Below the pieces are notes generated by a model that searched no databases, was not told the DNA's origin, and saw only the letters and a list, made by a program, of their open reading frames with translations. Of a stretch of 64,000 bases of DNA, positions 17,530-37,842 are shown one piece after another. Both the position numbers and the translations under genes were made by a program. Within the stretch, counting starts at the first letter, position 1. The number at the start of each line of letters is the position of its first letter. Source of the stretch: Flavobacterium eburneipallidum (GTDB lineage: Bacteria; Bacteroidota; Bacteroidia; Flavobacteriales; Flavobacteriaceae); contig NZ_CP114291.2 of NCBI RefSeq assembly GCF_027111355.2, forward strand, positions 3,348,001-3,412,000, written 5' to 3'.

Positions 17530-17570
17530 CAAATATATGTATTTAAAACAAAACAAACAATCGGTTGTGT
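17530..17570 (-). promoter_or_regulatory. Promoter with operator-like site A upstream of GH95
   Basis: On the minus strand the -7 box is TATATTTG (complement of 17530-17537), matching TAnnTTTG. A TTG -33 element lies at 17558-17560 with 20-nt spacing. The near-palindrome ACAACCGATTGT (complement of 17557-17568) covers that -33 element. The motif recurs at three other non-coding places in the window. A protein bound here would block the -33 box, so repression is the simplest reading. The start codon of GH95 is about 120 nt downstream. The rest of the 17408-17860 gap shows only AT-rich sequence and the GH98 terminator. Confidence 0.62.
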
Positions 17571-17720
17571 TATAAATTTTATACTTAAACTAAAAAATAA
17601 CATTTTTTTTATATTATCTGAAATTATATTTGCCAAAATAAAAAATATTATCAGTCTTTAATGATAATTATGTTACACCTTGCAATATTAGTTACCAGAA
17701 AACAATTATATAGTTAATAA

Positions 17721-17750
17721 TAAAAAAACCGTCCCAAATTTTGAGACGGG
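17721..17750 (-). terminator. Rho-independent terminator after GH98
   Basis: The stem CCGTC...GACGG (17729-17749) has an inner CAAA/TTTG extension and one mismatch. On the minus strand a run of Ts (complement of 17722-17728) follows directly. It lies about 110 nt past the GH98 stop, so GH98 transcription should end before the GH95 promoter. Confidence 0.8.
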
Positions 17751-17860
17751 TTCTGACAATCTTACCTAAACTACTTATATTTAAGTAATTATTTTTGTGG
17801 TGTTAATTTTATTTACATCTAAAATTAGCCTCATTGTTTTTTATAAAAACCTTTAAAAAA

Positions 17861-20800
17861 TTAAAGGTTTCCTTTTTTATAAATTTTCTTTGTTCTTATT
17901 GTACCGTCTGACATAAAGTTTTTTACGATGATAATAATGCCACTAAGATTATCTATGCTTGACAATCTTTGTCCTAATAAATTATAATATTGAGAATATA
18001 AAACTTTTGTTGAATCTGGTTTAAAATCTTCAGTTCCTAATCCTCCCGATTCATCTAACCCATTAAAAGAAATATCATCCATATAAAAATCTAGATTATT
18101 AACAGCTAAGCCCCATACAATTTGAGTAGCACCTGTTGTGTGGACTGTACCACTATCGACAGTAGAGCCACCTGTAATCCAATTTACACCGTCTGTTGAA
18201 TATTCCATTTTTAATGAAACACTTAGACTTCCTGAAACAGATGCTCTATACCATACTGGCTGACCAGGACTTGGATCAAAACTTGGATATGTCGTAACTA
18301 AAGTTGTGAGTCCACTTGATGTTGAGCGATAAATTCTAAATTGTGTAGTAGTTCCTGAATTATAAACCAATAACAAGTAACCTTCCATTATGCCTTGAAC
18401 ATACCCTGATGATGCAGTGCCAATTTTACTAGTATTACCTCTTAACAAAACACCTACTTTATATTCATTTGTACCAGAACCAATGTATTGCTTCCAAGTA
18501 ACTGAATAATCTGTACCTGTTTTTGAAAAAGCATTCAAATCCATCACTCCAGTAGCATTTTTTTGACCCACACCATAAGGTTTAATAACATTAGTTGTCA
18601 AATTATTGGCATCTGTATAAGACACTACTCCAGCAGTTGCGGCATTAGCTACTCCAATAGTTACATTATTTGCAGGAGGTGTTGATGCCGATGTTGTAGC
18701 TGCATCACTAGTAAAATCATATTTAACAAACATAGGAAGTTGATTTACCTTACCAGTTAATTTTACCTGACTTTCTATTGCATTGGTCGTTTTTACTGTA
18801 ATTGTACCTAATTTTTCACCTATTGACAATCCCGATTTCATACGAACAAATAAAGTTGTATTAGCTACAGTTCCATTGACTTGCGAAAGTGTAAGCGTAG
18901 GTTGATATGTACCATCAGCCGTCAAAGACAGTTCATAATTTTCATGAGCTTCAACAGTTATATCTCCAACTAGAGAACTTCCTGAAACAGAGAACATTTG
19001 ACTACCTGATGGTCCTGAATCCTGAACATAAGTAAATCCATCCATATTAAATTTAGATACAGCTAAACTCGAAGTAGAAAATTTAATATCATCCATTACC
19101 CAACTAAAGTTGTTTGAGCTTAATCCCCAAACTAATTCTGAAGATCCTAAAGGATAGGTAGCATCTTGATAAGTTGTTTGTGTTCCACCTTCCCAATTTA
19201 CACCATCTGCTGAAAATTCGAAAATTAACTTATCTCCAATTGCAGAAGCTCTAAACCATGCTGGTTGATCTGGCGTTACTTTAAGAGTTGTAGTGGTATA
19301 AGTAGGTTTTGCTGCAATGCCATTTGTACCTGCAACGTAAGGCTGAAGTGTAATGGTACCATCAGCATTGTTTAAAACGATAAACAAATACCCTTTTTTC
19401 ATTCCATCGGCATAAGCGGATGAACCATTTGCTCTTAGCAATACTCCTTTTTTTCCTCCGCTAGCGGTATAATATTCTTTCCAAGTAACAGAGTAATCAG
19501 TTGCGTCGGTTGGAAACATATTCAAATCGGCTACTCCTGTTCCGTTTGTTGCTCCAACAGAATATGCTTTAAAAGCATTGGTGATATTTGAATTTGCGTC
19601 AGTATGTGATACTACACCAGCGCTACCACTTTTTATGGTAATTAAATTTGCAGGAGGTGTAGTAGCAGTTGTAGTAACTACATCATCAGTGAAATTATAT
19701 ATTCCATTATTCTCATTTTGTGAAAAAGTAATGTTATCAAAGTAAATAACATATGAGCCTGAAGAATTTGCTTGCAATTTTATTTCATTGTCTCCTTCAT
19801 TCAATTCTATATTTTGAGAAACAATTGCCCAAGTACTTGCATCATTAGTTTCGCTAAATATTGGAGTGGCAACTTTAGTTCCATTTACATACAAATCAAT
19901 GTTTGTAATAGCTGAATTAGGAGCTGCATATCTGATGTTAAGTTGATACGTTCCTTTTCTTAAAGCTTTAATTACATCTTTTATACTTGCAGCAGCATTG
20001 GTTCCAAAATCTAAATATCCTTGCCCTTGATAATTTCTTATACTACCATTTTGACCACCAGTAGTAATGCTATTTATGTTCTTATAATCGAAATGCTCCG
20101 CTTCATTTTGACGAGCCCCAAGATAAACTGAAGGTTTGTTAGGTACAACCAAAGCAGCATCAGTATAATCAGTCAAACGTTGTGTTCCGTTACCCGCACA
20201 ATTTACAGTTAAATCAAGAGGTCCATTATGCTGAATTGTTAACGTAAGTACTCCTGCAGTCCAATTTTTTGTAACCACACTCGCCAAATGGCTTGCTCTA
20301 TCTTCATAAGTATATGTTGGTTCTGTAGTACTTCCATATATTTTGATAATATCAGTTTTTAAACTAGCATCCTTCTCATTGTAATTTGTCAAATAGAAAT
20401 TAACTTTATTTGAAAACTCCTTAATGATTCCCGAAGTATATTGTGAGTAAACAAGTTCCATCTTTTCACAACTATTGTATTTAAACGGAACACTGGCACT
20501 AGCAGTTTGCGGAACAACTGCTTTATAGGGATTATAAGTTACCCATCCATTTTCATTTCTTGCCACAAATAAATCTCCAGTATATTCTTCAGGAAACAAA
20601 GTGTTAAACTCAGTTTGTTTAGAAGCAATACTCGGCCATCTGCTGGCATAATTCGACTTGTTAACTTTTATATTAAATGATTGAGCATCTGAATCATCTA
20701 ATTGGAAAACCGTTGGGATAGTTGGATAACGTCCCGTTTTCTTAAAGAAACTCTTGTTATCTTTAAGATTACCATCACCATCCATACGATAAAGTCCCTC

Positions 20801-21943
20801 AAACATAGTCTGAGGAGAGCTATAAATATCATCAGGTGAGCCCGTTTGAACATTATTAATAATCACAAGCTTAGCTCTATTAATAACCTCTTTTCTAGTT
20901 GGAATACGTATAGTACCATCAAGAACTTTACGAAAAATATCTATACTTGTATTATCAAATTGGGGAAAAGTTTTCCAATTTCTAGCCTTATAACCATCCG
21001 CGATGTCAATTCGGTTTGTTTCCTGGAAACACTGTGTCCAGATAAGTTCAGGACCATCAATTACGGTTTGTCCATTCAGCATCATGTGTTCAAAATGTGG
21101 TGCACCAGCAGTAGCCATGGTAAAACCTTCATGTACTCCATTACTATTTGTCCATCCTGTATCATCGTATCGAATACCGTAATTCCCACTATAACCCGAA
21201 AGATAAGCGCCTAAGCAAATACTCTCCATATCAGACTGATAAGACTGTGTTGTATATTTATCTGACAAAATATAATTTTCTGTATAATTGCGACATGCTG
21301 CTGCAAAACTTGGATTACGCTTCATCATTCCAATAGGATTTATGGAAGGACTCCATTCTGTTCCACACCAACTTACCGATAGATAACCACCATATTTATT
21401 ACTTAATTTTAATAAATTAGCAAAGTGCGCCATCCTATCACTCCATTTTGCCGAAAGCGGGTCTGTAGCATCATCATATCCCCAAAATTGTTCGGCATAA
21501 TTAAACCCTATAAAGTTTGGGTATTGTTTATAAAACTCTTCATAAACCGAAAGGTCAAAATCTGAAAATTGAGTAAAGCCACCACTTGATGGCTGAATCA
21601 TTACCCACATTTGGTTCTGTGCACAAGTTCTAATCCATGACTTGGCAATTTCGTAGCCATATTCAGCCACTTTAAATTGACTGGTTGCTGCATCATGGCT
21701 AATGGAAAGTGAAATATTCATAACCACGTAGGGACGAATATCTGCTGGAATTAGATCTATGATTTTTTGAGGATCAGCATAGTTCCAAGTATCAATGTGA
21801 ATCAACCACATGGGTTGATTTGACGAAATAGGCCTCCTTAAGGGAGTGTTTTGTTGAGCATAAGTTGTATGCACAATAAAAAAAAGAACCATTACTATAA
21901 TATTTTTAATACATAGTTTATTAAAATGTAGTTTTTTATTCAT
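17861..21943 (-). CDS. GH98 endo-glycosidase, modular (endo-xylanase or endo-galactosidase type)
   Basis: 1360 aa with a signal peptide (ends HTTYAQ). The GH98 barrel spans about 40-370, with Glu151 in YAEQFWGYDD, Asp260/Asp261 in RYDDTGW and Glu299 in IDGPELIW as the likely acid and base residues of this inverting family. The GH98 C-terminal beta-domain follows (about 390-590), then a CBM6/35-like module (about 605-745, NEAEHFDYKNI to YVIYFDNITF). Next are two copies of a roughly 205-residue module (about 750-960 and 1060-1285) separated by an Ig/BACON-like sandwich. The last 40 residues (YYNLLGQRL...GTIRTKKIYKK) look like the short sorting-type tail of Bacteroidota surface enzymes. Known activities are blood-group endo-beta-galactosidase and, in B. 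ovatus, endo-xylanase on highly decorated xylan; the latter fits here. It would be the surface enzyme that cuts the polymer before SusC/D import. Confidence 0.88.
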   Translation of the reverse strand: MNKKLHFNKLCIKNIIVMVLFFIVHTTYAQQNTPLRRPISSNQPMWLIHIDTWNYADPQKIIDLIPADIRPYVVMNISLSISHDAATSQFKVAEYGYEIAKSWIRTCAQNQMWVMIQPSSGGFTQFSDFDLSVYEEFYKQYPNFIGFNYAEQFWGYDDATDPLSAKWSDRMAHFANLLKLSNKYGGYLSVSWCGTEWSPSINPIGMMKRNPSFAAACRNYTENYILSDKYTTQSYQSDMESICLGAYLSGYSGNYGIRYDDTGWTNSNGVHEGFTMATAGAPHFEHMMLNGQTVIDGPELIWTQCFQETNRIDIADGYKARNWKTFPQFDNTSIDIFRKVLDGTIRIPTRKEVINRAKLVIINNVQTGSPDDIYSSPQTMFEGLYRMDGDGNLKDNKSFFKKTGRYPTIPTVFQLDDSDAQSFNIKVNKSNYASRWPSIASKQTEFNTLFPEEYTGDLFVARNENGWVTYNPYKAVVPQTASASVPFKYNSCEKMELVYSQYTSGIIKEFSNKVNFYLTNYNEKDASLKTDIIKIYGSTTEPTYTYEDRASHLASVVTKNWTAGVLTLTIQHNGPLDLTVNCAGNGTQRLTDYTDAALVVPNKPSVYLGARQNEAEHFDYKNINSITTGGQNGSIRNYQGQGYLDFGTNAAASIKDVIKALRKGTYQLNIRYAAPNSAITNIDLYVNGTKVATPIFSETNDASTWAIVSQNIELNEGDNEIKLQANSSGSYVIYFDNITFSQNENNGIYNFTDDVVTTTATTPPANLITIKSGSAGVVSHTDANSNITNAFKAYSVGATNGTGVADLNMFPTDATDYSVTWKEYYTASGGKKGVLLRANGSSAYADGMKKGYLFIVLNNADGTITLQPYVAGTNGIAAKPTYTTTTLKVTPDQPAWFRASAIGDKLIFEFSADGVNWEGGTQTTYQDATYPLGSSELVWGLSSNNFSWVMDDIKFSTSSLAVSKFNMDGFTYVQDSGPSGSQMFSVSGSSLVGDITVEAHENYELSLTADGTYQPTLTLSQVNGTVANTTLFVRMKSGLSIGEKLGTITVKTTNAIESQVKLTGKVNQLPMFVKYDFTSDAATTSASTPPANNVTIGVANAATAGVVSYTDANNLTTNVIKPYGVGQKNATGVMDLNAFSKTGTDYSVTWKQYIGSGTNEYKVGVLLRGNTSKIGTASSGYVQGIMEGYLLLVYNSGTTTQFRIYRSTSSGLTTLVTTYPSFDPSPGQPVWYRASVSGSLSVSLKMEYSTDGVNWITGGSTVDSGTVHTTGATQIVWGLAVNNLDFYMDDISFNGLDESGGLGTEDFKPDSTKVLYSQYYNLLGQRLSSIDNLSGIIIIVKNFMSDGTIRTKKIYKKGNL

Positions 21944-22386: not shown

Positions 22387-23442
22387 TTACTTAACAACAG
22401 TAAATGTTTCTTTAACTACACCTCTATTTCTCATCAAAAGTGTATCTTTAGTTTGAGTGTTAATATTTTTTGCAATATGATTTATTGTATAATCTAAATA
22501 CAGTACATCTCTATCTACATTACCAAAACTGTTTTTCTCCCCTTTTTTCACAAATACACCAGTTCCACTAGCCGTAAATGCAGTAGGGTCAGAAGAAGTA
22601 ATTACACATTTACCAGCATCATCAAAAGTAAGATTTAAAGTGCAAGTATAATTTACTCCGGCGCCATCCTGTAATACTACAGGAAACTTCAAAACTTTTA
22701 GAGAACCAGTTGTCAATTGAACAAGCCAAGTTGCAACATTAGAAGTTGCTGCATCATAAGTCTGAACATCTTTTGGATGTCTTACAATCGTTTTATTTAA
22801 ACTACCAGTCATCACATCTTTACCTCTTCTTAAATAATATCCATGCCAAGTATTGATATATTTTACAGCATACAGTATATAATCTTTAGAAATTTTATCC
22901 CATTGTCTTGAATCTAACCTTCTAGGTTTAGTATTTGCCACAAGTGGTTTTCCTTGCAAAATAGAATCTACACCAACAGCAGTAGTCATAATTAATGGAA
23001 TTACATAATTATTCTGTGTTGCTAATGGATCTGCAAAAAACTTATCGGTTAGTTGCACTTCAACACCACCAGAAATATCTCCTTTTTTAATCAGGATCTG
23101 ATTTGATGCCAATGTATAATAATCACGTGGCATAGGAAGAATTGGGCGTAATGGTGACGTTCCAACAAACTTATAACCCTTAGGGATTGTATCTGCAACA
23201 ATAAAATCAATTGCTATGTCTTTCTTGTTCTCATAAACACCAGACATCGTTGCCATAATGTTACATTTGAATTGAAGATCCAAAGTATTGTCATATATAT
23301 CTTCGCCTAACGTAATCGTTCTCACTGGAAATTGATAAGGAAAATATACAGAAGAATAATCATAATCAGGGTAGGATATCGGATCGTTCTCACATCCCAC
23401 AACAGAGATCAATATCAATAAAAATAAAATTAGTTTTTTCAT
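22387..23442 (-). CDS. DUF1735/DUF5627-type surface glycan-binding lipoprotein (SusE position)
   Basis: 351 aa. A lipoprotein signal with lipobox ISVVGC places the mature N-terminus at Cys17. PYQFPVRTITLGED and the first 160 residues match the Ig-like DUF1735 domain. The C-terminal half (WHGYYLRRG, around 200, to the end) resembles DUF5627-type domains. Proteins of this kind follow SusD genes and bind glycan on the cell surface; that role is inferred from position and family. It is the last gene of the five-gene uptake operon, 24 nt after susD, and is followed by a cluster of hairpins. Confidence 0.82.
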   Translation of the reverse strand: MKKLILFLLILISVVGCENDPISYPDYDYSSVYFPYQFPVRTITLGEDIYDNTLDLQFKCNIMATMSGVYENKKDIAIDFIVADTIPKGYKFVGTSPLRPILPMPRDYYTLASNQILIKKGDISGGVEVQLTDKFFADPLATQNNYVIPLIMTTAVGVDSILQGKPLVANTKPRRLDSRQWDKISKDYILYAVKYINTWHGYYLRRGKDVMTGSLNKTIVRHPKDVQTYDAATSNVATWLVQLTTGSLKVLKFPVVLQDGAGVNYTCTLNLTFDDAGKCVITSSDPTAFTASGTGVFVKKGEKNSFGNVDRDVLYLDYTINHIAKNINTQTKDTLLMRNRGVVKETFTVVK

Positions 23443-23466: not shown

Positions 23467-25272
23467 CTAATTATTCCAACCATCATTTTGAAGGAGGTTA
23501 TTAAATTTTAGCGTTTCAAGGTAAGGAATAGGACCATAGTACATGTGATTTTGGAAAACTCTATTCTCTACAACGAAAGGATTGCCATAAACAGGAGCTG
23601 CTAATGAACCAGATATTGTAACGCCTTTAGCAGGTTCATTTAATTCAGTTAGTGCCACTTTCCAACGGCGTAAATCCCAAAAACGGAAACCCTCGAAAGA
23701 CAACTCCAAACGACGCTCATTACGAATTAACTGACGCATGGCAACTTTATCCGTTTTTATGGACTCCAAATAAGGATCTGTATTTAAACCTAATGCTCTC
23801 TTACGGATAGCTTTAATTATATCATAAGCAGTATAACCGTATCCTCTTGGGTCAGAAACTGATCCCCAAGCTTCATTAGCAGCTTCGGCAAAATTAAGAT
23901 ACATTTCTGTATAACGTATGCGTGGTCTGTAATGATTTTGAGTATTTCTACCATTTGGATTATAATTAACATCCTGTCTCAACAATTTTTTCATATAGTA
24001 ACCTGTACGTGTAGACGTATTCACATTATTTATGGCGTCATTACCAGCTGTAATGTTTATTTGAGCATTCGTAACACCTGCTCTACTTCCGTGATAAACT
24101 ACAAACTCTGCCAAACGAGGGTCTCTATTAGCAAATGGACTTGCTGGATTATATAATGAAAGTGGATTAGATATCGGATACCCATTACTAGCAGGGAATG
24201 AATCTACAAGATTTTGAGTTGGATTTACACGTCCGTTTCCAAATAAACTAGGAGGAAAATTTTCACGTTCCAAATCATTATTATTAGATGTTCCACCTCT
24301 CCATAAACTTTCTGGAGAGTTGGCTCCAGAGGTCAATGCATTTATCTCTGTTGTATTTCTATACCATGAAACCCCACTAGAAAAGGTAGATGGCAATCCT
24401 GCCAAACCTCCTTTAAGAGCAATTATTTCGGCAGCGTATTTAGCAGCATCCTCCCAAGTTCCATTAGAACCGTCAGCAGATCCATTGGCAAAAGCAGGAC
24501 TTGCAGCCAACAGAGCTACTTGTGAGCGAATTGCTTTAGCTACACGTCCACTGACAAGACCTAAAAACTTTACTCCCATGGCGCGATTGTATAGTGAAGG
24601 GGTCATACCAGTAACATTATATCTTGGAGGAATACTAGCATTACTAGCAACATCCACATAATCCTGTGGCAAACGATCTATGGCATTATTAATGTCACTA
24701 TAAATTTGTGCAGTACACGCATTGAACGTTTCACGAGGAAGATTAAATTCTGAAGTCACAACTTGTTCAGTCAAAACAATTGGCACACCAAGTAATTTTC
24801 CATTTACCCAACCCCCATGTGATTGTAATAAGTTATACATAAAAATGGCACGAAGTCCATAAGCTTCCCCTTTAATTCTTTCTCTAAAAAGGGTATCAAC
24901 AAGAGGGTCTTCGGAAAACGTCATCTTATCGACTTCACTGAGAACAATGTTCATGTATTGAATACCTGAATAACATGCTTCCCAGCGGCTTGCTGGATTA
25001 AAAGCAGCAGTCCACTGTCCCGTAGCTAATCTCAAAAAACCATTATTAAGATCATTTGATACGGCATCATCAGTAGCAACTTCACTAAAATTATACCCAT
25101 TGGTTGGGATTCTAGCATAACCCTGTGTAAGAAGTCCCAATCCAAAATTAGGATCTACATAAGTATCATTTTTATCCTTAATGTTTTCTAGTTCAGCATC
25201 TATAAGATCCGTACAACCAACAAATAAAACGGAGAAAATTAAAATTACAAATATGTTTTTATTCTTTTTCAT
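23467..25272 (-). CDS. SusD/RagB-family surface glycan-binding lipoprotein (second pair)
   Basis: 601 aa with a lipoprotein signal (FSVLFVGC). The N-terminal SusD-like TPR region (ATDDAVSNDLNNGFLR, RIKGEAYGLRAIFMYNLLQSHGG) and the RagB/SusD C-terminal region (RNERRLELSFEGFRFWDLRRWK) are both clear. SusD proteins cap a partner SusC barrel and deliver oligosaccharide to it. It pairs with the SusC gene 18 nt upstream (25291-28377). The glycan contact residues cannot be inferred. Confidence 0.93.
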   Translation of the reverse strand: MKKNKNIFVILIFSVLFVGCTDLIDAELENIKDKNDTYVDPNFGLGLLTQGYARIPTNGYNFSEVATDDAVSNDLNNGFLRLATGQWTAAFNPASRWEACYSGIQYMNIVLSEVDKMTFSEDPLVDTLFRERIKGEAYGLRAIFMYNLLQSHGGWVNGKLLGVPIVLTEQVVTSEFNLPRETFNACTAQIYSDINNAIDRLPQDYVDVASNASIPPRYNVTGMTPSLYNRAMGVKFLGLVSGRVAKAIRSQVALLAASPAFANGSADGSNGTWEDAAKYAAEIIALKGGLAGLPSTFSSGVSWYRNTTEINALTSGANSPESLWRGGTSNNNDLERENFPPSLFGNGRVNPTQNLVDSFPASNGYPISNPLSLYNPASPFANRDPRLAEFVVYHGSRAGVTNAQINITAGNDAINNVNTSTRTGYYMKKLLRQDVNYNPNGRNTQNHYRPRIRYTEMYLNFAEAANEAWGSVSDPRGYGYTAYDIIKAIRKRALGLNTDPYLESIKTDKVAMRQLIRNERRLELSFEGFRFWDLRRWKVALTELNEPAKGVTISGSLAAPVYGNPFVVENRVFQNHMYYGPIPYLETLKFNNLLQNDGWNN

Positions 25273-28200: not shown

Positions 28201-28377
28201 TAAATCGTTAGCTTCACTTGTTTCATTAGCACTACTGATAGTGGCTCCTGGCACAAGATTCCCTTTATTATCATACACAACTGCAGATACAATTATCTTG
28301 TTATCTTGTGCACTCATTTCTAATGAGAAAAGAGTAAATATTGCGCATATAAAAAAAACTATTTTGATATATTTCAT
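25291..28377 (-). CDS. SusC-like TonB-dependent transporter (second pair)
   Basis: 1028 aa. Signal peptide, then a carboxypeptidase-like N-terminal extension (about 28-95, VVYDNKGNLVPGATI), a plug domain and a 22-strand-type barrel ending MRYYSIGLTAAF. The plug is divergent: it has VIVDGIPRDEFN and the end motif GVVSITTKRG, but the usual IRG-type block is replaced by GGNIWGMNGK, and the expected TonB-box area is unusual (SDTVVLGYNSDKVKV). It imports oligosaccharides across the outer membrane with its SusD partner. It is 33 nt after the first SusD gene, so both pairs belong to one transcript. Confidence 0.92.
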   Translation of the reverse strand: MKYIKIVFFICAIFTLFSLEMSAQDNKIIVSAVVYDNKGNLVPGATISSANETSEANDLGEFTITVDANSILTVTASGYKTGSIEAKSDLKKVVLDYDSDTVVLGYNSDKVKVAFNTVAKSDVLGGVSTVNIADQLATNYTTFSLDNLASYIPGYTGGNIWGMNGKLVIVDGIPRDEFNVVPSEIEDITVLKSAAAVALYGSLAAKGVVSITTKRGLSKGNKFDVRINTGIMDPKRYAKYLSSSEYMTLYNEALMNDGQPRNPLYTDEVIANSASGVNPYRYPNVDFYSSDNLKKYATRSEIVAEYTGGNDKAQFYVNVGNYRTTTLLDIGNGKSEGENRFNVRGNLDIKLSKMITSKINTSVTFYDNNQAQGNFWGNAATLRPNLFAPLIPLSYLEKADAKTQNYIATSPFIVDGKYLLGGTSTQLTNPFADIYTRGIIKGTTRKYQFDTSFNFDLANLLKGLTFDTQFGIDYNTSYSQQIGNNAYAVYDPTWATDADGDYITTLTKFGTDAKTDSRSLDNAYQRQTMFFSGAFKYKFDYNKVHNFSALLVAHGYTLAESEVYHAIANANLGFQFNYNYKNKYYLDFTQNMVHSSRLAEGQQDAFSPTFSMGWRISKESFMANSKVFNELKLTASASILNTDLDFIGFEGGSGYNLYRPSYSNANGSFFSWQEGRQLRTTDVINGENYGLGFEQRKEYTLGLESSLFNNMVHIEASYFYNQLTGIPIRDRNLYPSYFSVTTPSTSSFIPVVNYNADERKGFDLGINFNKKINKVHLNVGMVATYFETRAYTRNDIIYRDDYQKRQGQPTDALFGLKSNGFYTAAEAADIKNNVVGALPKSTYAVVSAGDIKYQDVNNDKVIDNNDQVYLGRGGASPLTIGLNTTVKWNNFSLFVLANSTSGAYAYKNSSYYWASGVNAKYSAPMLGRWTPETAETATYPRLTTTAGANNFIASDFWIYKNDRISLSRVQLSYDIPKSVLAKTFISNLGFYVNGNDLLLIAKEREHMETNIGGTPQMRYYSIGLTAAF

Positions 28378-28410: not shown

Positions 28411-30417
28411 TTACCAGCCAGGGTTTTGATAAAATTCAGGATATATGCTTACATCCGCTCGTTTCAATGGAAGCCAGTAATGTTTATCAGAATAAATACG
28501 TTCCCAAACAACAGATTCCTTTAAATTATTGATTTTATTGTTCTCTGGATTAACTTTGTCCAAGAAATTGTTGGTAGGATTAACATCATTGGTTTCAGGA
28601 ACATCACGATCAAAAGTAATACCCGTTTTAACATTATAAGGAAACTTAGTCAATAGCAACCAGCGACGTAAATCATTAAATCTATGTCCTTCATAAGCTA
28701 ATTCTACAGCACGTTCACGTCTCACTTCTGACATAAACATATCAGTAGATACTAAAAATGGCGCTTGAACTCCTGGTAAAGGATTCCCATTAGGAAGAAT
28801 CACACGATTACGAACTTTATCAATGGCATAAACAGCATCTTTGTTCCATGTTGTTGCAGTAGCACGAATATTGTTATGCCCCATAGCGATGGACTCTGCA
28901 TACATCAAATAAACATCTGACAAACGAAGCCATGGAATATGAACTTGATGATTATTATATGCATTATCGTATCTATTTAATCCAAGCGGATTAAATTTCA
29001 TCAACAAATATCCTGTATTACTACCCGAAGCACGTGAAGATCTATAATTTCCAACTCTAACACCATCATATAAATTGGCATAAGTATATTGCCTTGCTTC
29101 TGCAGTAGCAGTAGAATTAACCATCTTTCTGGTATCAAAACCAAAATTAAGATAAAAACGGGGGTCTCTATTTTTCCAAGGATAGTTTATGTCATAATTG
29201 GAACCTTGATCACCAGGAACATCTGCTTTACTAGCACTATTAATAGGATAACCAGTATTGGTACCAAAATAATTTACATAATTTGCCGTAGGGTATTGTG
29301 ACCAACTTCTACCTTGTAAAACATTAGCACATAAATACTGCTTATCCATAGACTGACCAGTACCTCCATAATTAGGGCCTCTGAAAATTGCCTCAAGATA
29401 AGTTACTCCATTAACAACTGCAGAACCTGGCATTCTACCATTTTGTCCATTCGTACGATATACTTGCTCATAACTAGTTCCATTAGTTCCCCAAGGGATT
29501 AATTTATATTGGCATGAACCATTCTCTGATGCATTTAATAAAGTTCCAAAAGCCTCTGCAGCTTTTTTACAATATTCTGCATTATACTGTTCTCCTCCTC
29601 CTGAAGACTTATTCATTAATGGACTTCCAGCATACAAATAGTTCTTGCCTAAATAAGCAAAAGCCATCCATTTATTGATTCTAAGTTCGTTTTTACCTAA
29701 AGTAGCTTGTCCAGCTGGAACAGCATCCCAGTCTGATGGCAATAAAGTACTTGCTTTAGTAAAATCTTCGGCAATCTTATCAGCAGTTTGTTGATAAGTC
29801 AAACGAGGAAATCGCAATGGCTCATCAGAAGCTAAAACCGAATCAATATAAGGCATTCCACCCCAATAGGAGATTATTTGCATGTGAAACCAAGCTCTAA
29901 AGAAATACAATTGACCAGCAATTATATCTTTCTCTTCCTGAGTAGCATCTACCATTTTATCAAGATTTGCAAGACCTATGTTTGCTTTCCTAATTCCGTA
30001 CCAAGAACCTACCCACAATGACTTTGATCTTTTTTGATTGTTAGTATTGTTAGTGCTAAAATCCACATCATTTTGATCTAAAAAAGATCCTCCATTACCA
30101 AAACCCCCTCTTTGCCAAGCTAAAAAGTTTCCTAAATCAACTTGCCAAATCCAAGCACCTTGGTTGGCTGCATTGGCCTGCCACATTTCCTCTTCTCCAT
30201 TATTGAAGAAATTGTTATCATCACGATTATTGAAACTTGGTATGCAGTGGTATAACTCCTCGGTAAAACCTTGGAAATTTGTGAAGTTTTGGTAAGCCAA
30301 ATCTGGATCAGTTGTAGATCCTGATTTAATGTCCAAATAATCAGAACAAGAAGTAAAACTCCCCGCTACAAAAAAGAAAAGTCCAAAATATAGAATTATC
30401 TTATTATAATTTTTCAT
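28411..30417 (-). CDS. SusD/RagB-family lipoprotein (first pair)
   Basis: 668 aa with lipobox GSFTSC. Typical SusD features: an N-terminal helical region (QLYFFRAWFHMQIISYWGGM, about 168-187) and a C-terminal block (RRERAVELAYEGHRFNDLRRW). It is longer than the second SusD and shares only family-level motifs with it, so the two pairs are not a recent duplication. It lies 11 nt after its SusC partner. A role in surface capture of polysaccharide or its oligosaccharides is inferred from family. Confidence 0.93.
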   Translation of the reverse strand: MKNYNKIILYFGLFFFVAGSFTSCSDYLDIKSGSTTDPDLAYQNFTNFQGFTEELYHCIPSFNNRDDNNFFNNGEEEMWQANAANQGAWIWQVDLGNFLAWQRGGFGNGGSFLDQNDVDFSTNNTNNQKRSKSLWVGSWYGIRKANIGLANLDKMVDATQEEKDIIAGQLYFFRAWFHMQIISYWGGMPYIDSVLASDEPLRFPRLTYQQTADKIAEDFTKASTLLPSDWDAVPAGQATLGKNELRINKWMAFAYLGKNYLYAGSPLMNKSSGGGEQYNAEYCKKAAEAFGTLLNASENGSCQYKLIPWGTNGTSYEQVYRTNGQNGRMPGSAVVNGVTYLEAIFRGPNYGGTGQSMDKQYLCANVLQGRSWSQYPTANYVNYFGTNTGYPINSASKADVPGDQGSNYDINYPWKNRDPRFYLNFGFDTRKMVNSTATAEARQYTYANLYDGVRVGNYRSSRASGSNTGYLLMKFNPLGLNRYDNAYNNHQVHIPWLRLSDVYLMYAESIAMGHNNIRATATTWNKDAVYAIDKVRNRVILPNGNPLPGVQAPFLVSTDMFMSEVRRERAVELAYEGHRFNDLRRWLLLTKFPYNVKTGITFDRDVPETNDVNPTNNFLDKVNPENNKINNLKESVVWERIYSDKHYWLPLKRADVSIYPEFYQNPGW

Positions 30418-30428
30418 CTTATAGTATT

Positions 30429-33400
30429 TTATAATGTTAATCTAAAACCTAAGCTTATACGACTTACCGAAGGATAAGCGGTATTTCCATTTACTTCTCT
30501 ATCGTCTGGTGTACGTGTCCATAACCAAAGATTATTTCCATTTGCATAGATACGCAATGACTCAAGCCCAATACGCTTAACCTGCTCTGAATTAAAGGTA
30601 TAAGCTATTTCAGCATTTTTCAAACGAATATAGGATCCGTCATACAAATAGCGAGTACCTAGATTATTTCCATTTAAGGTACTATTTAGCCTTGGCATAG
30701 GAGAGTCAGCATTCGTGTTATCTTTAGACCAATAAGTACCTTCATCATAAACCGTATTAAAATAAGGTAAACCAAAACTCTGTGTTTCGATATAACGAGA
30801 AACATTACTTACACCGTAGAATTGAACCATGGCACTAAAACCTTTCCAATCTACACCAAGACTTGCATTATACGTGTTTTGAGGATTTGATGGATAGCCA
30901 TATCTCACTCTATCCCCATTGTTATCAATCACACCATCACCGTTAAAATCCATTATTCTATAATTACCAGGAATTTTGGCATCATTACTATCAAATGCCG
31001 TACTACCATACAACTCATCCCAAGTATTATAAAAGCCTTGATCCAGCATTGAAGTGGATTGTCTGTTTGGATAACCCTCTCTTTTTACATATTCAGGAAG
31101 CAGTGCTGGATCATCCCTATCTATTACTTCATCCTTTGCTTGTGTAAAACTTACATCAGACCACAAACGAAGGTCGTTGGTAAGTCTTTGACTGTAATGC
31201 AATTCAAACTCAAAACCTTTAACTTCTACAATACCCTTATTAACAACCGGTGGAGCAAATCCAAAATAAGATGGTACCGCTCTTTGGCTTCCGTTCAAAA
31301 TGATATTTGTTCTGTAATCCTTAAAGACATCAACACTTCCAGACAATACTTTTTTAAATAATGAGAAATCTAAACCTAAATTCTGTTTCGTTACTTTTTC
31401 CCATGCTATGGAAGGATTTCCTATGGAAGTTTGTGTAATCCATCCGTAAGCATTACTAAGCTCGCCTTGATTCCCTTGAGTCAACAAAGGGCGTGAAATA
31501 CTACTACCATATACATCTTCATACAACCAACGACCATTATAACTGTCATCCCCAACCTGACCGTAAGAGTATCTCAGTTTTAGCTGATCAAGAAAAGTAA
31601 GTTTTTTCATAAACTTCTCTTCTGTAATCATCCACCCTACCGCTCCTGAGGAGAAAAAACCAAAACGATTATCAGGTGCAAATTTTTCAGTACCGTTGTA
31701 AGCTCCATTATAATCTAAAAAATACTTCTTGTTGTAACCATAAGTAGCACGAAAAACCCAATCTTCACGATAAGCAGGAATATTGGCACCCGAAGCTGTT
31801 TCCTGGCGCTGGAAATTCCCCATTCCAGTTACATTATGTACTCCAAAATCACGAACATAATTTATTTGTGCTTGATAATTCAAATTACGGTAAGTAGAAC
31901 CATCATTCATTGTACCTCCTCTTGTAGCCCAGTTTAATGGTTCATAAAAATCAAAATTTGTTGTTACATCAGGTGTTTGCGAGAAGACAGGTATCCCAGT
32001 AACAGGATCAATATATTTGCTCTGAATAGAATAGCTATCATTATTAATTCCTCTCTGTTCTTCAAGAAAAGTATTATCCAAAGAAAAAGTTACATTAGCC
32101 GAAAGTCCTTTAAGAATCTTTCCTAAATCTTGTCTAAGATTAAAGTCGGTTGCGATACGAGTGGTTGTTATAGACTGCGATCCACCAATGGCTAAATTCA
32201 ATGCTGAGTTAGCTCCTTGAACCGAATTTTGAGGGTAATATCCCCAAGATCCATCTGAATACAATGGATAATATAAATCTGGTGGCGTGTTATAAGCTCC
32301 TGCCCACATATACCCCTCACTAATTACCCTCCATGGTGCTTTTTTCAACCCATAAGATCCTGAAAGATTCACTTTAAACACTGTTGATTTTGTCAACTGA
32401 AAATCTAAATTAGCCCTAGAATTTATTCTATTATAGCTGTAACCAGATTCAAAACCCTGATTGCTAGGCGGTACTTTAACAAGATCTCCTTCGTTAGCAT
32501 AATCTACTGCAGCATAATATTTTACTCTATCTGTTCCTCCTGATATATTAACGTTGGCAGTATGAGACATAGCAGTATCTTTAAATAAATAATCTTGCCA
32601 ATCAATATTAGGATATCTTTCTCTTTGTTCTTGAGTAGTTTGATTACGATAATTATCAATAAATGATTGAGGTCTCATATAAGTCCAAGAAACTGGCTGC
32701 TGATTTAGCTCATATTCAATTACCTTATTTTTTACCATAAGAGCATCATAAGCATCCATTTTACCTGGAAGCTTTGAAACTGCTTTCATTATTGCACTAT
32801 ATCCAAAATCAATTTTTGCTTTTCCAACTACCCCTCTTTTTGTTGTAATAAGAACTACTCCATTAGCTCCTCTAACCCCATATACAGCAGTAGCAGAGGC
32901 GTCTTTCAACACAGAAACAGTCTCAACTGAAGTAATATCAACACTATTGATAGCACGTTCGATACCATCAACAAGGATAAGAGGCTGAGAATTGTTCCAT
33001 GAACTAACTCCTCTAATAATAATTTCGGGATCTTCTTCCCCTGGCTTTCCTGTAGTTGTCAAGGTTGTCACACCTGGAAGATTTCCTGTAAGTGCTGCAC
33101 CTAAACTAGTAACCCCTCCTGTACGTTGTAAAACTTTACCCGAAACTTGAGAAATTGCCCCAACAACACTTTCTTTCTTTTGTTGACCGAAACCAACAAT
33201 AATAACCTCTTGTAAAGTTGTTTGATCTGAAGACATAACAATGTTGACTTCTGTTTGACCATCAATTTTCTTTTCGATGGTTTGCATACCAACACTAGAA
33301 AAAATCAATGTTTCATTAGACGAAGGTAGTGTAATTTTATAGTCTCCATTAATATCGGTTACTACGCCAATTGCAGGATTACCTTTAACTGTTACATTAA

Positions 33401-33599
33401 CACCAGGAATTGGCTTTTTATCATCTGAAGAAGTAATTTTTCCTGTAACAACTATTTGTTGATTCTGTTGCTTAATTTTAGCGGAAGAAGACAAAGTGGA
33501 TTTCCCCTCTCTTGCCAACAACACACTAGAAAACATAAACAAAACTCCTAATACCACGAAATTCATCTTGCGTGGAATTTTAATTAATTGTATTTTCAT
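30429..33599 (-). CDS. SusC-like TonB-dependent transporter (first pair)
   Basis: 1056 aa. Signal region, carboxypeptidase-like domain (about 48-125, GKITSSDDKKPIPGVNVTVK), a TonB-box-like stretch (TTLQEVIIVGFGQQKKESV), a classical plug (IIIRGVSSWNNSQPLILVDG, then GVVLITTKRG) and a barrel ending YPSVSRISLGFRLTL. It is the first gene of the uptake operon. Its likely promoter is 34455-34484, giving an unusually long leader of about 850 nt with an operator-like site in it. Confidence 0.94.
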   Translation of the reverse strand: MKIQLIKIPRKMNFVVLGVLFMFSSVLLAREGKSTLSSSAKIKQQNQQIVVTGKITSSDDKKPIPGVNVTVKGNPAIGVVTDINGDYKITLPSSNETLIFSSVGMQTIEKKIDGQTEVNIVMSSDQTTLQEVIIVGFGQQKKESVVGAISQVSGKVLQRTGGVTSLGAALTGNLPGVTTLTTTGKPGEEDPEIIIRGVSSWNNSQPLILVDGIERAINSVDITSVETVSVLKDASATAVYGVRGANGVVLITTKRGVVGKAKIDFGYSAIMKAVSKLPGKMDAYDALMVKNKVIEYELNQQPVSWTYMRPQSFIDNYRNQTTQEQRERYPNIDWQDYLFKDTAMSHTANVNISGGTDRVKYYAAVDYANEGDLVKVPPSNQGFESGYSYNRINSRANLDFQLTKSTVFKVNLSGSYGLKKAPWRVISEGYMWAGAYNTPPDLYYPLYSDGSWGYYPQNSVQGANSALNLAIGGSQSITTTRIATDFNLRQDLGKILKGLSANVTFSLDNTFLEEQRGINNDSYSIQSKYIDPVTGIPVFSQTPDVTTNFDFYEPLNWATRGGTMNDGSTYRNLNYQAQINYVRDFGVHNVTGMGNFQRQETASGANIPAYREDWVFRATYGYNKKYFLDYNGAYNGTEKFAPDNRFGFFSSGAVGWMITEEKFMKKLTFLDQLKLRYSYGQVGDDSYNGRWLYEDVYGSSISRPLLTQGNQGELSNAYGWITQTSIGNPSIAWEKVTKQNLGLDFSLFKKVLSGSVDVFKDYRTNIILNGSQRAVPSYFGFAPPVVNKGIVEVKGFEFELHYSQRLTNDLRLWSDVSFTQAKDEVIDRDDPALLPEYVKREGYPNRQSTSMLDQGFYNTWDELYGSTAFDSNDAKIPGNYRIMDFNGDGVIDNNGDRVRYGYPSNPQNTYNASLGVDWKGFSAMVQFYGVSNVSRYIETQSFGLPYFNTVYDEGTYWSKDNTNADSPMPRLNSTLNGNNLGTRYLYDGSYIRLKNAEIAYTFNSEQVKRIGLESLRIYANGNNLWLWTRTPDDREVNGNTAYPSVSRISLGFRLTL

Positions 33600-34454
33600 A
33601 TTAATATTTTGACATTTTTTAATTTATTTACAAATTAGAATATAGAATTTACCATAGTACTCATTATAAAAAAATCTGTGATTTTTAAATTTTTTTAATC
33701 CAATAAAGCGATTGAAGCTAAAGTTTGATTTATTTTTAAATCAATCCTAGGAAACATCTTAAATAAGATGAAATCAAAAACTCTATCAACATAAAAAGAA
33801 AATATATAGCTTATTCTAAAAAGTTAATGCTTTATTTATTTAAGAATTTAAGAACTATAAAAATCACTGTATTTATTAAAATAAACTGGATCTTATTATT
33901 CTTAAAACAAACAAAAAACATCTTTAAGGTTTGGTTAACTCATAGGCTTTTGGTTTTATTAGTTGGTTTGTTAATAGATTAGTATATCTTGGTTATTTTT
34001 TTAAAACTTAGCTTTCATTTCATCCAAATTACTTTTAAACTCAAATTCAATTATTTCATTAACAAAAAGATTTATTTATTTTTAACTTTTATTGGTAAGC
34101 AAAAAATAATAAATACAACCGATTGTGTGTTTAAAGCAGATTTATTGGATTTTGTTTCGGAATTTCACCAATTGTAACCTCAATAATTTTTTTATGAAAA
34201 CAACAAAATCTTTTAGGTAATCCTTAATGCAGTATTATTTTACTGATGTAACAATTTAGTTTTCTTCATTTTGTATGAAAGGGCCGCTCAACCAAAAAGC
34301 AACCCTATTCAAATATTAAAAATAAACTAACCAAATTATTTTTATCAAAAACACTCCTAGTTACTCGAAAATTATTTTAAATAAATCATTTTCGAAGACT
34401 CTAAAAATCAAAATTGTTTGATACAAATACAAACGTTTTTTAAAATCCTTTAAA
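33600..34454 (-). other. Long AT-rich leader of the SusC operon
   Basis: No gene is supported here. The only long frames on either strand are low-complexity Phe/Ile/Lys-rich sequence. I found no good TAnnTTTG box on the minus strand inside it, which argues that transcription starts at the 34455 promoter and gives a leader of about 850 nt. Operator-like site B lies at 34115-34126. The 14-mer at 33654-33667 recurs inverted at 22186-22199. Confidence 0.4.
34115..34128. promoter_or_regulatory. Operator-like site B in the SusC leader
   Basis: ACAACCGATTGTGT at 34115-34128, identical over 14 bases to site C 366 bp away. No -33/-7 pair is positioned around it on the minus strand. It may be an auxiliary operator for looping with site C, or a downstream roadblock. 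Confidence 0.5.
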
Positions 34455-34494
34455 CAAAGATAAATAAAAAACTAAATAAAACAACCGATTGTGT
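34455..34494 (-). promoter_or_regulatory. SusC operon promoter with operator-like site C
   Basis: The minus-strand -7 box TATCTTTG (complement of 34455-34462) is separated by exactly 19 nt from a TTG -33 element (complement of 34482-34484), an ideal Bacteroidota sigma-ABfr arrangement. The operator-like ACAACCGATTGTGT (34481-34494) overlaps the -33 element. The half-sites CAAC/GATTG around a central CG look like a LacI-family operator; that family assignment is inference. Confidence 0.65.
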
Positions 34495-34743
34495 ATTTAT
34501 TTTTTAAATAATTGAAAAATAATATTCAATTTAAATACATATCAAATATTTATAATGACATTTTAATAAGTATAATTCAAAAAAAAATCCTTTAACAATT
34601 TAACTATTAAAAAATTAATAAGCTATATCCAAAATTATTAAAGAAATGATAAATGTAAAAAAAACATTTAATTTTAATCATTTATCGGAATGCTGTAAAC
34701 AAGTTCTAAAACGAAAGAATTAACCTGTAAAAGAAATTATCAT

Positions 34744-34778
34744 ATAAAAAAAGGAAGCCTTATATAAGACTTCCTTTA
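34744..34778 (-). terminator. Terminator of the tkt-tal operon
   Basis: A hairpin with AAGGAAG (34751-34757) pairing with CTTCCTT (34770-34776), and a largely self-complementary TTATATAA middle. On the minus strand it is followed by a run of seven Ts. It is about 95 nt past the transaldolase stop. Confidence 0.82.
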
Positions 34779-34870
34779 ACATAAACCTTCATTAAAAATA
34801 TTAGTAACCAATCATCCTATTAATAAAAACACATATTATTTGAATTTATAAACAAACTATAAAGATCAAG

Positions 34871-35539
34871 TTAACTACTTAAATTAGCTATTCCCTTTTT
34901 ATAATCTGCTAAAAATGTGGCTAAACCAATATCAGTTAAAGGATGTTTCAACAATCCTTCTATTGCACTTAATGGCCCAGTTATCACGTCTGATCCAATT
35001 TTAGCACAATTGATTATATGCATCACATTTCGCACTGATGCAGCTAAAATTTGAGTTTCAAAACCAAAATTATCAAAAATCAATCGAATCTCTTCTATTA
35101 AAACTAATCCATCTGTTGAAATATCATCTAATCTTCCAATAAAAGGAGACACATAAGTTGCTCCAGCTTTTGCAGCCAATAAGGCTTGTCCAGACGAAAA
35201 AATTAAAGTACAATTTGTCCTAATACCTTTATTAGAAAAATATTTTATGGCTTTTATTCCATCTTTAATCATTGGAATTTTAACAACAATTTGCGGGTGT
35301 AACGCAGCTAATTGCTCTCCTTCAGCTATCATTCCTTCAAAATCAGTCGATATAACTTCGGCACTTACATCACCATCAACCAATTCACAAATTTTTAAAT
35401 AATGAGCAATGATATTCTCTGCCCCTGTAATTCCTTCTTTAGCCATTAATGAGGGATTAGTGGTTACTCCATCTAGGACTCCTAAATCATTAGCTTCTTT
35501 TATGTCTTTTAAATTTGCTGTATCTATAAAAAATTTCAT
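34871..35539 (-). CDS. tal: Transaldolase, short TalC/MipB type
   Basis: 222 aa, the usual size of the short transaldolase/fructose-6-phosphate aldolase subfamily. It is a TIM barrel with [10 protein letters not shown] and [13 protein letters not shown] at the start, the Schiff-base lysine in VVKIPM and LAASVRN near the end. It interconverts sedoheptulose-7-phosphate plus glyceraldehyde-3-phosphate with erythrose-4-phosphate plus fructose-6-phosphate. It lies 18 nt after transketolase in a two-gene operon covering the non-oxidative pentose phosphate pathway, and an operator-like site shared with the polysaccharide locus sits at that operon's promoter. Some members of the subfamily are fructose-6-phosphate aldolases, but the context favours transaldolase. 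Confidence 0.93.
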
Positions 35540-35557
35540 TTTTTACTATTTATTTAA

Positions 35558-37594
35558 TTATTTGCTTTCTGCAATATATTTCAAGATTTCTTTAGCAGCA
35601 CTTTCAGGGTTGAATCCGAATTTTTGATCCAACACACTAGCTGGAGCTGAATAACCAAAATGGTCTAATCCAACTACTTTTCCGCTATCGCCAATCAATC
35701 CTTCCAAGTTTACAGGAAGTCCAGCCGTAAGACCGAAAACTAATTTTCCTTTAGGGATGATGCTTCCTTGGTACTCTTTTGACTGTAATTTGAACAATCC
35801 TTCAGAAATGATAGAGGCTACGTTTACTTTTAGATTGTTTTCGTTTTCTAAAATTTCAGCAGCGCCTAATAATGTAGAAACTTCCGATCCATTTGCGAAT
35901 AAAGTAATATCAGCATTTGGAGTCGATTTTACTAAATAACCACCTTTTTTAGCTGCTGTTGCTTCCTCATATCTAGATGATACAGCAGGAATGTCTTTGA
36001 TGTTTTGTCTAGAAAGAATCAAAGCAGTTGGTGTTTTAGTGTTTTTCAACGCCATATCCCAAGCTACTGAAGTTTCGATAGCATCAGCAGGACGAAGTGC
36101 TAATAAACTTGGATTTCCCGAGTGATTTTTTACTTTTTCCATCAAACGCATTTGCGCTTCTTGCTCAATTGGTTGGTGGGTTGGTCCATCTTCTCCAACT
36201 CTGAATGAATCGTGAGTCAAGACATATTTTACAGGCAATTCCTGAATAGCAGCCAAACGAATCGCTGGTTTCATATAATCAGAAAACACAAAGAAAGTCG
36301 CTACTACAGCCACAACACCTCCGTGAAGAGCAATTCCGTTGGCAATAGCCGTCATTGTTAATTCAGCCACTCCAGCTTGCAAGAAAGCTCCGCTGAAATC
36401 ATTTTTTTGCAATACAGAAGATTTTTTCAAGAAACCATCTGTTTTATCACTGTTCGATAAATCGGCAGAAGAAACGATTACGTTTTCTAAATTTTCTGCT
36501 AAATAACCCAATACAGCTGATGAAGCTTCTCTCGTAGCTACATTTGCTTTTTGAACTACTTGACTCAAATCTAAATCAGGAAGTACACCAGAAAGGAACG
36601 AATCCATTTTGGATGCCAATGCTGGGTTAGCCGTTTTCCATGCAGCAATTTTTGCTTTTTGTTCAGCAGCAGCAGCCGTTTTTTTAGCTAAAACTGATGT
36701 GTAGTGTGCTTGAACTTCTGGGAAAATATCGAAAGAACTTTCAGGATTTGCTCCTAAATTGATTAAAGTTTTTGTGAAATCTGCTTTGGTATCACCAATT
36801 GGTTTTCCGTGCAATTCGCATTCTCCTTCATACATAGACCCATCTGCAAGAACGCAACCTTTACCCATAATGGTTTTACCAATAATTAAGGTTGGTTTTT
36901 CAGTTTCAGCATTCGCATCGTTCAACGCTTTACGAATTTGCTCGTGATCGTGACCATCAATAGTGATTACTTTCCATCCCCAAGCTTCGTATTTCATAGC
37001 CGTATCTTCTGATGTCACTTCGTCTGTCATAGAAGAAAGTTGCACATCATTCGAATCATAAAACATGATAAAGTTGTTCAAACCTAAATGTCCTGCAATA
37101 CGACCCACACCTTGAGAGATTTCTTCCTGAACACCACCATCCGTGATAAAACCGTAGATTTTGTGTTCGAAAAGACCGTTGAATCTAGCGTCAAGGAATT
37201 TCGCAGCAATAGCAGCTCCAGCTCCCATAGCGTGACCTTGTCCTAATGGTCCAGAAGTGTTTTCGATTCCTCTTAACACATCTACTTCAGGGTGGCCTGG
37301 CGTGATTGAACCCCATTGTCTGAAACTTTGAAGATCTTCTTTTTTATAATTTCCTAATAAATTGTATTGCGCATACATCAAAGCCGATAAGTGACCCGCA
37401 TCCATAAAGAAACGATCTCTAAATGGCCAATCCATTTCGGTTGGGTCAAAATTCAAATATTCGGTGTATAGAATGTGCAAGAAATCGGCACCTCCCATAG
37501 CGCCTCCAGGGTGTCCTGAATTTGCCTTTTCTACCATCGAAATGGCTAATGCTCTTATGTTATCTGCGGCTAAATTGTCAATTTTTTGATTCAT
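35558..37594 (-). CDS. tkt: Transketolase
   Basis: 678 aa, full length. N-terminal thiamine-diphosphate domain (GHPGGAMGGADFLHILY, GPLGQGHAMGAGAAIAAKF, and FITDGGVQEEISQG with FYDSNDVQLSS for Mg/ThDP), pyrimidine-binding domain (VVAVVATFFVFSDYMKPAIR, SFRVGEDGPTHQPIEQEAQM) and C-terminal domain. The usual GDG of the ThDP motif reads TDG here. Cytosolic. It transfers two-carbon units between xylulose-5-phosphate and ribose-5-phosphate or erythrose-4-phosphate, so it is needed to use pentoses released from arabinoxylan-like glycans. It is first in the operon with transaldolase. The promoter is about 240 nt upstream, with operator-like site D. Confidence 0.96.
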   Translation of the reverse strand: MNQKIDNLAADNIRALAISMVEKANSGHPGGAMGGADFLHILYTEYLNFDPTEMDWPFRDRFFMDAGHLSALMYAQYNLLGNYKKEDLQSFRQWGSITPGHPEVDVLRGIENTSGPLGQGHAMGAGAAIAAKFLDARFNGLFEHKIYGFITDGGVQEEISQGVGRIAGHLGLNNFIMFYDSNDVQLSSMTDEVTSEDTAMKYEAWGWKVITIDGHDHEQIRKALNDANAETEKPTLIIGKTIMGKGCVLADGSMYEGECELHGKPIGDTKADFTKTLINLGANPESSFDIFPEVQAHYTSVLAKKTAAAAEQKAKIAAWKTANPALASKMDSFLSGVLPDLDLSQVVQKANVATREASSAVLGYLAENLENVIVSSADLSNSDKTDGFLKKSSVLQKNDFSGAFLQAGVAELTMTAIANGIALHGGVVAVVATFFVFSDYMKPAIRLAAIQELPVKYVLTHDSFRVGEDGPTHQPIEQEAQMRLMEKVKNHSGNPSLLALRPADAIETSVAWDMALKNTKTPTALILSRQNIKDIPAVSSRYEEATAAKKGGYLVKSTPNADITLFANGSEVSTLLGAAEILENENNLKVNVASIISEGLFKLQSKEYQGSIIPKGKLVFGLTAGLPVNLEGLIGDSGKVVGLDHFGYSAPASVLDQKFGFNPESAAKEILKYIAESK

Positions 37595-37823
37595 GTTAAT
37601 ATTTTATTATTTCTTAAAATGCTATAAAAACCTCTAATTAAATGATTTAATGCAATTTACAAACCTTCAATCGCTCCATCTTAAATTTGAATAAAATCAG
37701 AAAAAAATCAATTATTTTTAATATGATATACTAAAAAGCATTGATTGATATTTCCAATTATTCTGTCACTATCGTCAAATAAAACTCATTTATTTTTTTA
37801 TTCAAATAAATAAATATTTACAC

Positions 37824-37842
37824 ACAACCGATTGCAAATATA
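37824..37842 (-). promoter_or_regulatory. Transketolase promoter with operator-like site D
   Basis: The minus-strand -7 box TATATTTG is the complement of 37835-37842. Directly downstream, over the expected transcription start, is ACAACCGATTGC (37824-37835), sharing CAACCGATTG with sites A-C. No good -33 TTG is visible at 17-23 nt. A regulator here would sit on the start site. The predicted leader to the tkt start codon is about 235 nt and shows no structure I can name. Confidence 0.5.

Follow-up and report, generated by a model that had tools for sequence, protein, structure and literature searches.

A candidate LacI-family operator shared by xylan uptake, xylan digestion and transketolase genes of Flavobacterium eburneipallidum

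We examined 64,000 nucleotides of the Flavobacterium eburneipallidum genome, hereafter the window (C1:3348001-3412000; the genome is a single contig, C1, of 3.85 Mb), in which a short motif recurs near glycan-uptake, glycoside hydrolase (GH) and transketolase (tkt) genes. The 10-mer CAACCGATTG occurs four times, at 17558-17567 on the minus strand and at 34116-34125, 34482-34491 and 37825-37834 on the plus strand. Dinucleotide shuffles give an expected count of 0.12 in the window (G+C 34.5%), and none of 100 shuffles reached four. All four copies lie outside called open reading frames (ORFs; the gene calls are script-made and uncurated). A first-pass annotation, made from the letters of the window, had given these four copies, their coordinates and their non-coding placement exactly. 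Bacteroidota promoters have the form TTG-N19-TAnnTTTG, and the copies, their putative promoter elements and the genes concerned are arranged as follows.

14942..17407, minus strand: GH95 (Pfam PF22124), downstream of a candidate operator
17530..17537, minus strand: putative -7 box TATATTTG of the GH95 promoter, at +30 from the core by the offset rule from the LacI loci described below
17557..17568, minus strand: candidate operator ACAACCGATTGT of GH95, over the putative -33 box
30429..33599, minus strand: SusC1, SusC-like TonB-dependent transporter (PF13715, PF07715)
34115..34126, plus strand: proximal of the two SusC candidate operators, some 520 bp ahead of the ATG
34455..34462, minus strand: putative -7 box TATCTTTG of the SusC promoter, at +29 from the distal core (34482)
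34481..34492, plus strand: distal of the two SusC candidate operators, lying over a putative -33 box
34871..35539, minus strand: transaldolase / TalC-FSA family protein (PF00923)
35558..37594, minus strand: transketolase, tkt (PF00456)
37824..37835, plus strand: candidate operator ACAACCGATTGC of tkt, directly after the putative -7 box and about 240 bp upstream of the ATG
37835..37842, minus strand: putative -7 box TATATTTG of the tkt promoter, with the tkt core at -8

Because TATATTTG lies at +30 from the GH95 core and TATCTTTG at +29 from the distal SusC core, the TTG of the operator can serve as the -33 box. At tkt the core follows immediately after TATATTTG, and would therefore cover the transcription start. 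The earlier assignment of these three copies to promoters was thus correct. At the proximal SusC copy (34116), TAnnTTTG is absent from the usual -7-box offsets in the window sequence and the promoter fit fails; the two SusC copies are 366 bp apart (34116/34482).

The genome-wide search proposed in the first-pass annotation returned 15 copies of CAACCGATTG, 10 of which fall within 88 kb (C1:3297705-3385834). Every one of these clustered copies extends to RCAACCGATTGY, reading ACAACCGATTGY (final base T in seven, C in three) and thus flanked by a purine and a pyrimidine (R..Y), and nine of the ten are intergenic. The five copies outside the cluster are all inside ORFs, and none has R..Y flanks. 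One-mismatch copies outside the cluster were considered at eight loci (L030-L037), where all lie in ORFs; one of these loci (L034) is also among the five exact 10-mers. Sites lie upstream of C1:3297825 (encoding 913 aa, without a family match above cut-off), GH67, a 905-aa protein, a GH10, GH95, SusC (two sites) and tkt. The putative regulated set therefore extends beyond the window.

Pfam families over the 88 kb include GH67, three GH10, three GH115, GH8, several esterases and many GH43, together with GH31, GH97, GH127, GH3, GH2, GH95 and GH98. For uptake and metabolism there are two SusC, two SusD, a GPH-type sugar symporter, the transketolase and the transaldolase-family protein. The scan took in the cluster proteins other than those at C1:3307509-3310226, 3330793-3331161, 3345076-3347670 and 3347680-3349587. 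From the enzyme families encoded we infer that this is probably a glucuronoarabinoxylan degradation cluster.

The genome has seven LacI helix-turn-helix genes. A LacI-family gene near pentose catabolism, which the first-pass annotation had suggested seeking, is present as LacI-a beside xylB and xylA, and a paralogue, LacI-b, lies 18 kb from the first site of the cluster.

C1:39312-40343, outside the window: LacI-a (PF00356 above cut-off)
C1:3278470-3279501, outside the window: LacI-b (PF00356 and PF13377/PF00532 above cut-off)

LacI-a is divergent from an operon comprising a GntR gene, xylB, xylA and a transporter gene. LacI-b combines an N-terminal LacI helix-turn-helix with a periplasmic-binding-protein-like effector domain, as expected of the LacI/GalR family. 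Chains of CcpA, PurR and LacI match LacI-a over most of its length, those of CcpA being the closest solved relatives by sequence, and none of the named NCBIfam LacI equivalogs (CytR, RbsR, CcpA, PurR and others) scored above its curated cut-off; the best, CytR, reached 221.6 bits against a cut-off of 436. LacI-a has 343 residues and E. coli LacI 360, and the local match leaves 29 residues compared with 54 in LacI, so that the tetramerisation tail of the E. coli type seems to be missing. LacI-a and LacI-b are identical at 301 of 343 positions, including the whole of residues 1-87; the 42 differences lie in the remainder. The sequence LATSTISRAL, in the recognition-helix region, is present in 71 of the 82 LacI proteins compared, with one-residue variants in most others.

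A fresh duplication of LacI-a and LacI-b is unsupported, as F. alvei and F. franklandianum are among the species whose copies group with LacI-b. Homology between the two genes extends no further than about 36 bp upstream of the ATG; at that point LacI-b has, by eye, a short transposase-like reading frame.

We compared loci around orthologues of LacI, chosen by the protein and not by the presence of sites. The best 80 of 110 such loci (L094-L173; 55-90% identity) come from Flavobacterium, whose named species supply the nearest LacI orthologues, and from Lutibacter, Confluentibacter, Flaviramulus, Maribacter, Salegentibacter, Leeuwenhoekiella, Fulvivirga, Marinoscillum and metagenome-assembled genomes, and gene maps were inspected for 14 of them. 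A further set (L075-L093), in which 2 of 51 sites were coding, had been hand-picked from genomes with clustered sites and, being biased, was not used as evidence. The 80 loci contain 149 copies of the 10-mer (142 non-coding, 7 coding) and none of the reversed sequence. The bases flanking the 10-mer, which were left free in the search, were only A or G before it and only C or T after it at 136 distinct non-coding sites. The form RCAAYCGRTTGY has 177 intergenic sites, and its reversed control none. A palindrome centred on CG is LacI-like, and these counts and the palindromic free flanks agree with the dyad that the first-pass annotation had described, the centre being asymmetric in 142 of the 177 sites.

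The site also recurs upstream of orthologues, as the promoter comparison in related genomes proposed in that annotation revealed. Genes up to 600 bp downstream of sites were SusC-like in 56 cases, GH67 in 36, LacI in 34, GH3 in 31, symporter in 16 and GH43a in 11 (assigned by best match to a reference set, a site between divergent genes being counted for both). TAnnTTTG is at exactly +29 for 15 of the 172 site-gene pairs and at -8 for nine, compared with a mean of 0.39 per position. With symmetric core variants added, the +29 spacing is found in 24 pairs, all at SusC-like genes, with two pairs at +28 and four at +30; the -8 spacing is found in nine, all at GH3. We give no p-value for these offsets because related loci are not independent, and in most pairs TAnnTTTG was not found at these positions. 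Where a promoter can be recognised, the operator TTG appears to be the -33 box, or the operator appears to follow the -7 box directly.

This recurrence bears on the possibility that the copies stem from duplicated promoters or mobile sequence and have no regulatory role. By eye, the promoters upstream of C1:3297825 and GH67 are near-identical over about 70 bp, as such an origin would have it; the remaining sites of this genome, however, have little in common beyond the motif (also by eye), and the motif recurs across genera at fixed promoter offsets. We consider this origin extremely improbable.

Among 46 neighbouring pairs less than 600 bp apart, 12 are spaced by 76-78 bp and 25 by 308-350 bp, and all 25 of the latter are beside SusC-like genes. 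Many of the SusC-like genes with paired sites 308-366 bp apart (in L115-L166 and the window) are non-orthologous. The pairs at 76-78 bp (L109, L110, L131, L136, L137, L140, L143, L145, L147, L153, L155 and L156) lie upstream of the symporter (three), GH43a (five) or an apparent Nudix-type regulator (two), and two are cut by the locus end. We do not claim DNA looping between the paired SusC sites, because they keep no fixed helical phase and the LacI tetramerisation tail seems to be missing.

We then asked whether sites and regulator occur together in 199 genomes of the genus, scoring a genome as LacI-positive if it had a match to LacI-a at E<=1e-100 and counting ACAACCGATTGY in the same genomes, 110 of which contain it. 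The 39 LacI-positive genomes contain 185 sites versus 19 for the reversed-pattern control; the 160 LacI-negative genomes contain 121 versus 96. At least three sites were found in 29 of the 39 LacI-positive genomes and in 12 of the 160 LacI-negative ones. In the five of these 12 that we inspected, 18 of 19 sites are in ORFs, and these matches look like chance.

The same genomes speak to the idea that the site is read by a GntR-type regulator whose gene adjoins xylB (C1:38168-39169), LacI being a mere neighbour. The GntR gene is part of the xyl operon, and its orthologue (38 of the 199 genomes) accompanies LacI in most genomes. Seven genomes discriminate between the two proteins, and they oppose GntR: the four with LacI and without GntR (G099, G103, G151 and G179) have 5, 4, 2 and 8 sites, whereas the three with GntR and without LacI (G025, G044 and G181) have none. 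In Maribacter (L167), Salegentibacter, Flaviramulus, Fulvivirga and Leeuwenhoekiella, moreover, sites are found by LacI in 21-kb loci that lack a GntR match, and the LacI-like palindrome is a further point in disfavour of GntR. We therefore regard GntR as a very unlikely reader of the site. A Nudix (NrtR-type) regulator, present in some related clusters and matched in 46 of the 199 genomes, was rejected as the reader, as this genome has no match at E<=1e-40.

The tkt gene of the window is 99.8% identical in nucleotide sequence to a second copy (C1:63447-65483). Over 2041 bp the two differ 4 times; beyond the ORF borders, where the match stops, their flanks are unrelated, which suggests gene conversion or a recent ORF-sized copy; the matching stretch runs from 35557 to 37597 of the window and from C1:63444 to 65485. 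Close to the second copy are a GntR-like gene and, by eye, genes resembling those for arabinan use; the operator is absent from the 1.5 kb upstream of this copy. Homogenisation of tkt copies is not a general rule, as the copies in three other two-copy genomes are 97.6, 81.9 and 80.9% identical. The label 'tal' given earlier to the adjacent gene calls for caution: the protein matches PF00923, and NCBIfam puts it in the fructose-6-phosphate aldolase/TalC family (TIGR00875, above cut-off).

Transketolase was searched for in 29 of the 39 LacI-positive genomes. A transketolase of the window type (E<=1e-150) is present in 13 and absent in 16. One genome (G112) has tkt divergent from LacI with ACAATCGGTTGC 361 bp upstream, and in two others (G006 and G066) tkt comes after a GH3 gene with the operator in its promoter; leaving aside those of the present genome, the other tkt copies retrieved have no site directly upstream. 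The link between tkt and the operator is therefore not peculiar to the window, yet it is not universal.

The rest of the cluster within the window consists of the following genes.

1594..14824, minus strand: GH127, GH3, GH43, GH2, GH43 and one protein without a Pfam match
17861..21943, minus strand: GH98 with CBM35/CBM6-like modules (PF08306, PF16990, PF03422)
22387..23442, minus strand: protein with a BT_3987-like N-terminal domain and DUF5627, after the SusCD genes (PF08522, PF18620)
23467..25272, minus strand: SusD2, SusD-like (PF07980)
25291..28377, minus strand: SusC2, SusC-like (PF07715)
28411..30417, minus strand: SusD1, SusD-like (PF07980)

No exact operator of their own was found within the window for the enzymes at 1594..14824; the 695-aa protein at 12737-14824 is the one without a Pfam match. 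Regulatory RNA in the long SusC leader was sought with Rfam at gathering thresholds, which yielded only a tRNA across the window. The window also contains gldL, gldM and gldN, and a tandem TTAG microsatellite (38880-38951) beside a leucine-rich-repeat gene.

We propose, with a probability of about 0.86, that a LacI-family repressor (LacI-a/LacI-b) uses RCAACCGATTGY, in a wider form approximately TTTAMRCAAYCGRTTGYGT, as its operator and co-controls xylan uptake, xylan digestion and tkt/TalC. The clustering of sites, their intergenic placement, the palindromic flanks, the promoter geometry, the co-occurrence with LacI and the recurrence upstream of orthologues all argue for this assignment. LacI would presumably bind as a dimer and, when no inducer is present, cover the -33 box at GH95 and SusC or the transcription start at tkt, blocking RNA polymerase. 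A sugar from the breakdown of glucuronoarabinoxylan would release the repressor, and the SusCD import genes, GH67, GH10, GH95 and the dedicated transketolase/TalC pair would then be expressed jointly. The first-pass annotation had suggested one regulator for import, side-chain enzymes and pentose metabolism. The presence of sites at GH67, GH10 and other genes, and the link to tkt elsewhere, support this suggestion.

The sites could also be genuine and act in activation, or in CcpA-like control of carbon catabolism in general, rather than in specific repression. The kinship of LacI-a with CcpA chains is compatible with this, and the sign of control cannot be read from sequence. Exact R..Y sites with the CCGA core are, however, confined to one xylan cluster in this genome, unlike a global regulon, and wherever a promoter can be recognised their position, over the -33 box or the start, is one at which a bound protein would be expected to block. 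Such a role appears very improbable.

Several observations weigh against a LacI repressor acting through this operator. The core is an imperfect palindrome in most sites, the asymmetric centre noted above being CCGA. An operator-like 12-mer (C1:3339581-3339590) falls within the codons for the signal peptide of a GH97 protein, and an intact operator (C1:3306908-3306917) lies between convergent genes, the end of a GH43 and the end of the 905-aa gene, where a promoter role is not evident. The relaxed motif ACAAYCGRTTGT, with at most one mismatch, is weakly enriched genome-wide (54 places versus 35 for the reversed control), so weaker sites are indistinguishable from chance in this genome. No site lies upstream of either lacI gene or of the xylB/xylA operon here; the lacI-adjacent sites of relatives are therefore missing in this genome. 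Exact sites number at most two in 10 of the 39 LacI-positive genomes, and two of these lack any. LacI-positive genomes also tend to be larger, and genomes that are related do not count as independent. Finally, 13 of the 80 LacI loci are without RCAAYCGRTTGY. Five of these (L117, L120, L123, L125 and L126) are second copies, the other copy in the same species having sites; L133 is a 3.3-kb contig, and some are short contig ends. Three Confluentibacter loci (L161, L162 and L163; LacI at about 70% identity) are site-less in the full 21 kb, where the motif may have drifted or the targets may be elsewhere.

The proposed repressor could have a further layer. Two LacI paralogues with the same DNA-binding region and different sensors might read one set of operators, so that each -33/+1 site would combine two xylan-derived signals (e.g., a xylose compound and a glucuronate compound); the paired SusC operators, about 310-370 bp apart, would add a second control point. 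Two LacI copies are held by 9 of the 39 LacI-positive genomes. We offer this extension as a speculation that is conceivable but doubtful.

A local LacI regulon with its own operator is a well-known type of switch, and this example seems undescribed. Proteobacteria have LacI-family XylR regulons over xylan and xylose genes. They too place xylanases, TonB-dependent transporters and pentose catabolism under one sugar-responsive repressor, but differ in phylum and operator, whereas the present case has SusCD-type loci, a dedicated transketolase and an operator TTG that may be a Bacteroidota -33 box. Among titles and abstract openings of the open-licence literature, we found no paper on a Flavobacterium LacI xylan operator. 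LacI-family regulators are reported to control some xylan systems (PMC12125979, PMC10766802), and Caldicellulosiruptor XynR/XylR are coordinated transcription factors for xylan use, in another phylum (PMC12285236). The LacI-family uronate regulators UxuR/UxaR/KdgR of Bacteroides (PMC3878776, PMC4052901) resemble our case in family and phylum, and lacI of the relatives lies beside GH67 and mannonate dehydratase genes; here xylan SusCD, GH10, xylBA and tkt would be involved as well.

Bacteroides XylR/AraR form a Bacteroidota pentose regulon, and Nudix regulators are found in some related clusters, but they belong to another protein family, NrtR (PMC3878776, PMC4666351), unmatched in this genome at the threshold given above. 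In the Bacteroides thetaiotaomicron reconstruction, polysaccharide loci are controlled by hybrid two-component regulators and xylose use by an NrtR-type regulator (PMC3878776). Algoriphagus UxuR2, of the LacI family, regulates uronate loci with a TRAP transporter (PMC5507952); by eye, TRAP-like genes are present in the loci of Fulvivirga and Salegentibacter too, and the passage on UxuR2 does not include a xylan SusCD regulon. In xylan loci of Gramella flava a lacI gene is annotated with xylA, xylB, susC, susD and aguA, the passages giving no operator or regulon (PMC5306329). A legend for β-1,3-xylan loci of marine bacteria names LacI, Tkt, Tal, XylA, XylB and TonB-dependent transporters (PMC12125979), so the gene company itself is not new; the xylan linkage differs, and a shared operator is not in the passages.

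If our proposal is true, one LacI-type operator joins a multi-operon xylan cluster of 88 kb to enzymes of the pentose phosphate pathway. The motif can be searched, mutated and bound, and would predict the xylan-responsive genes of a Flavobacterium. It would also explain why a second, near-identical transketolase gene exists.

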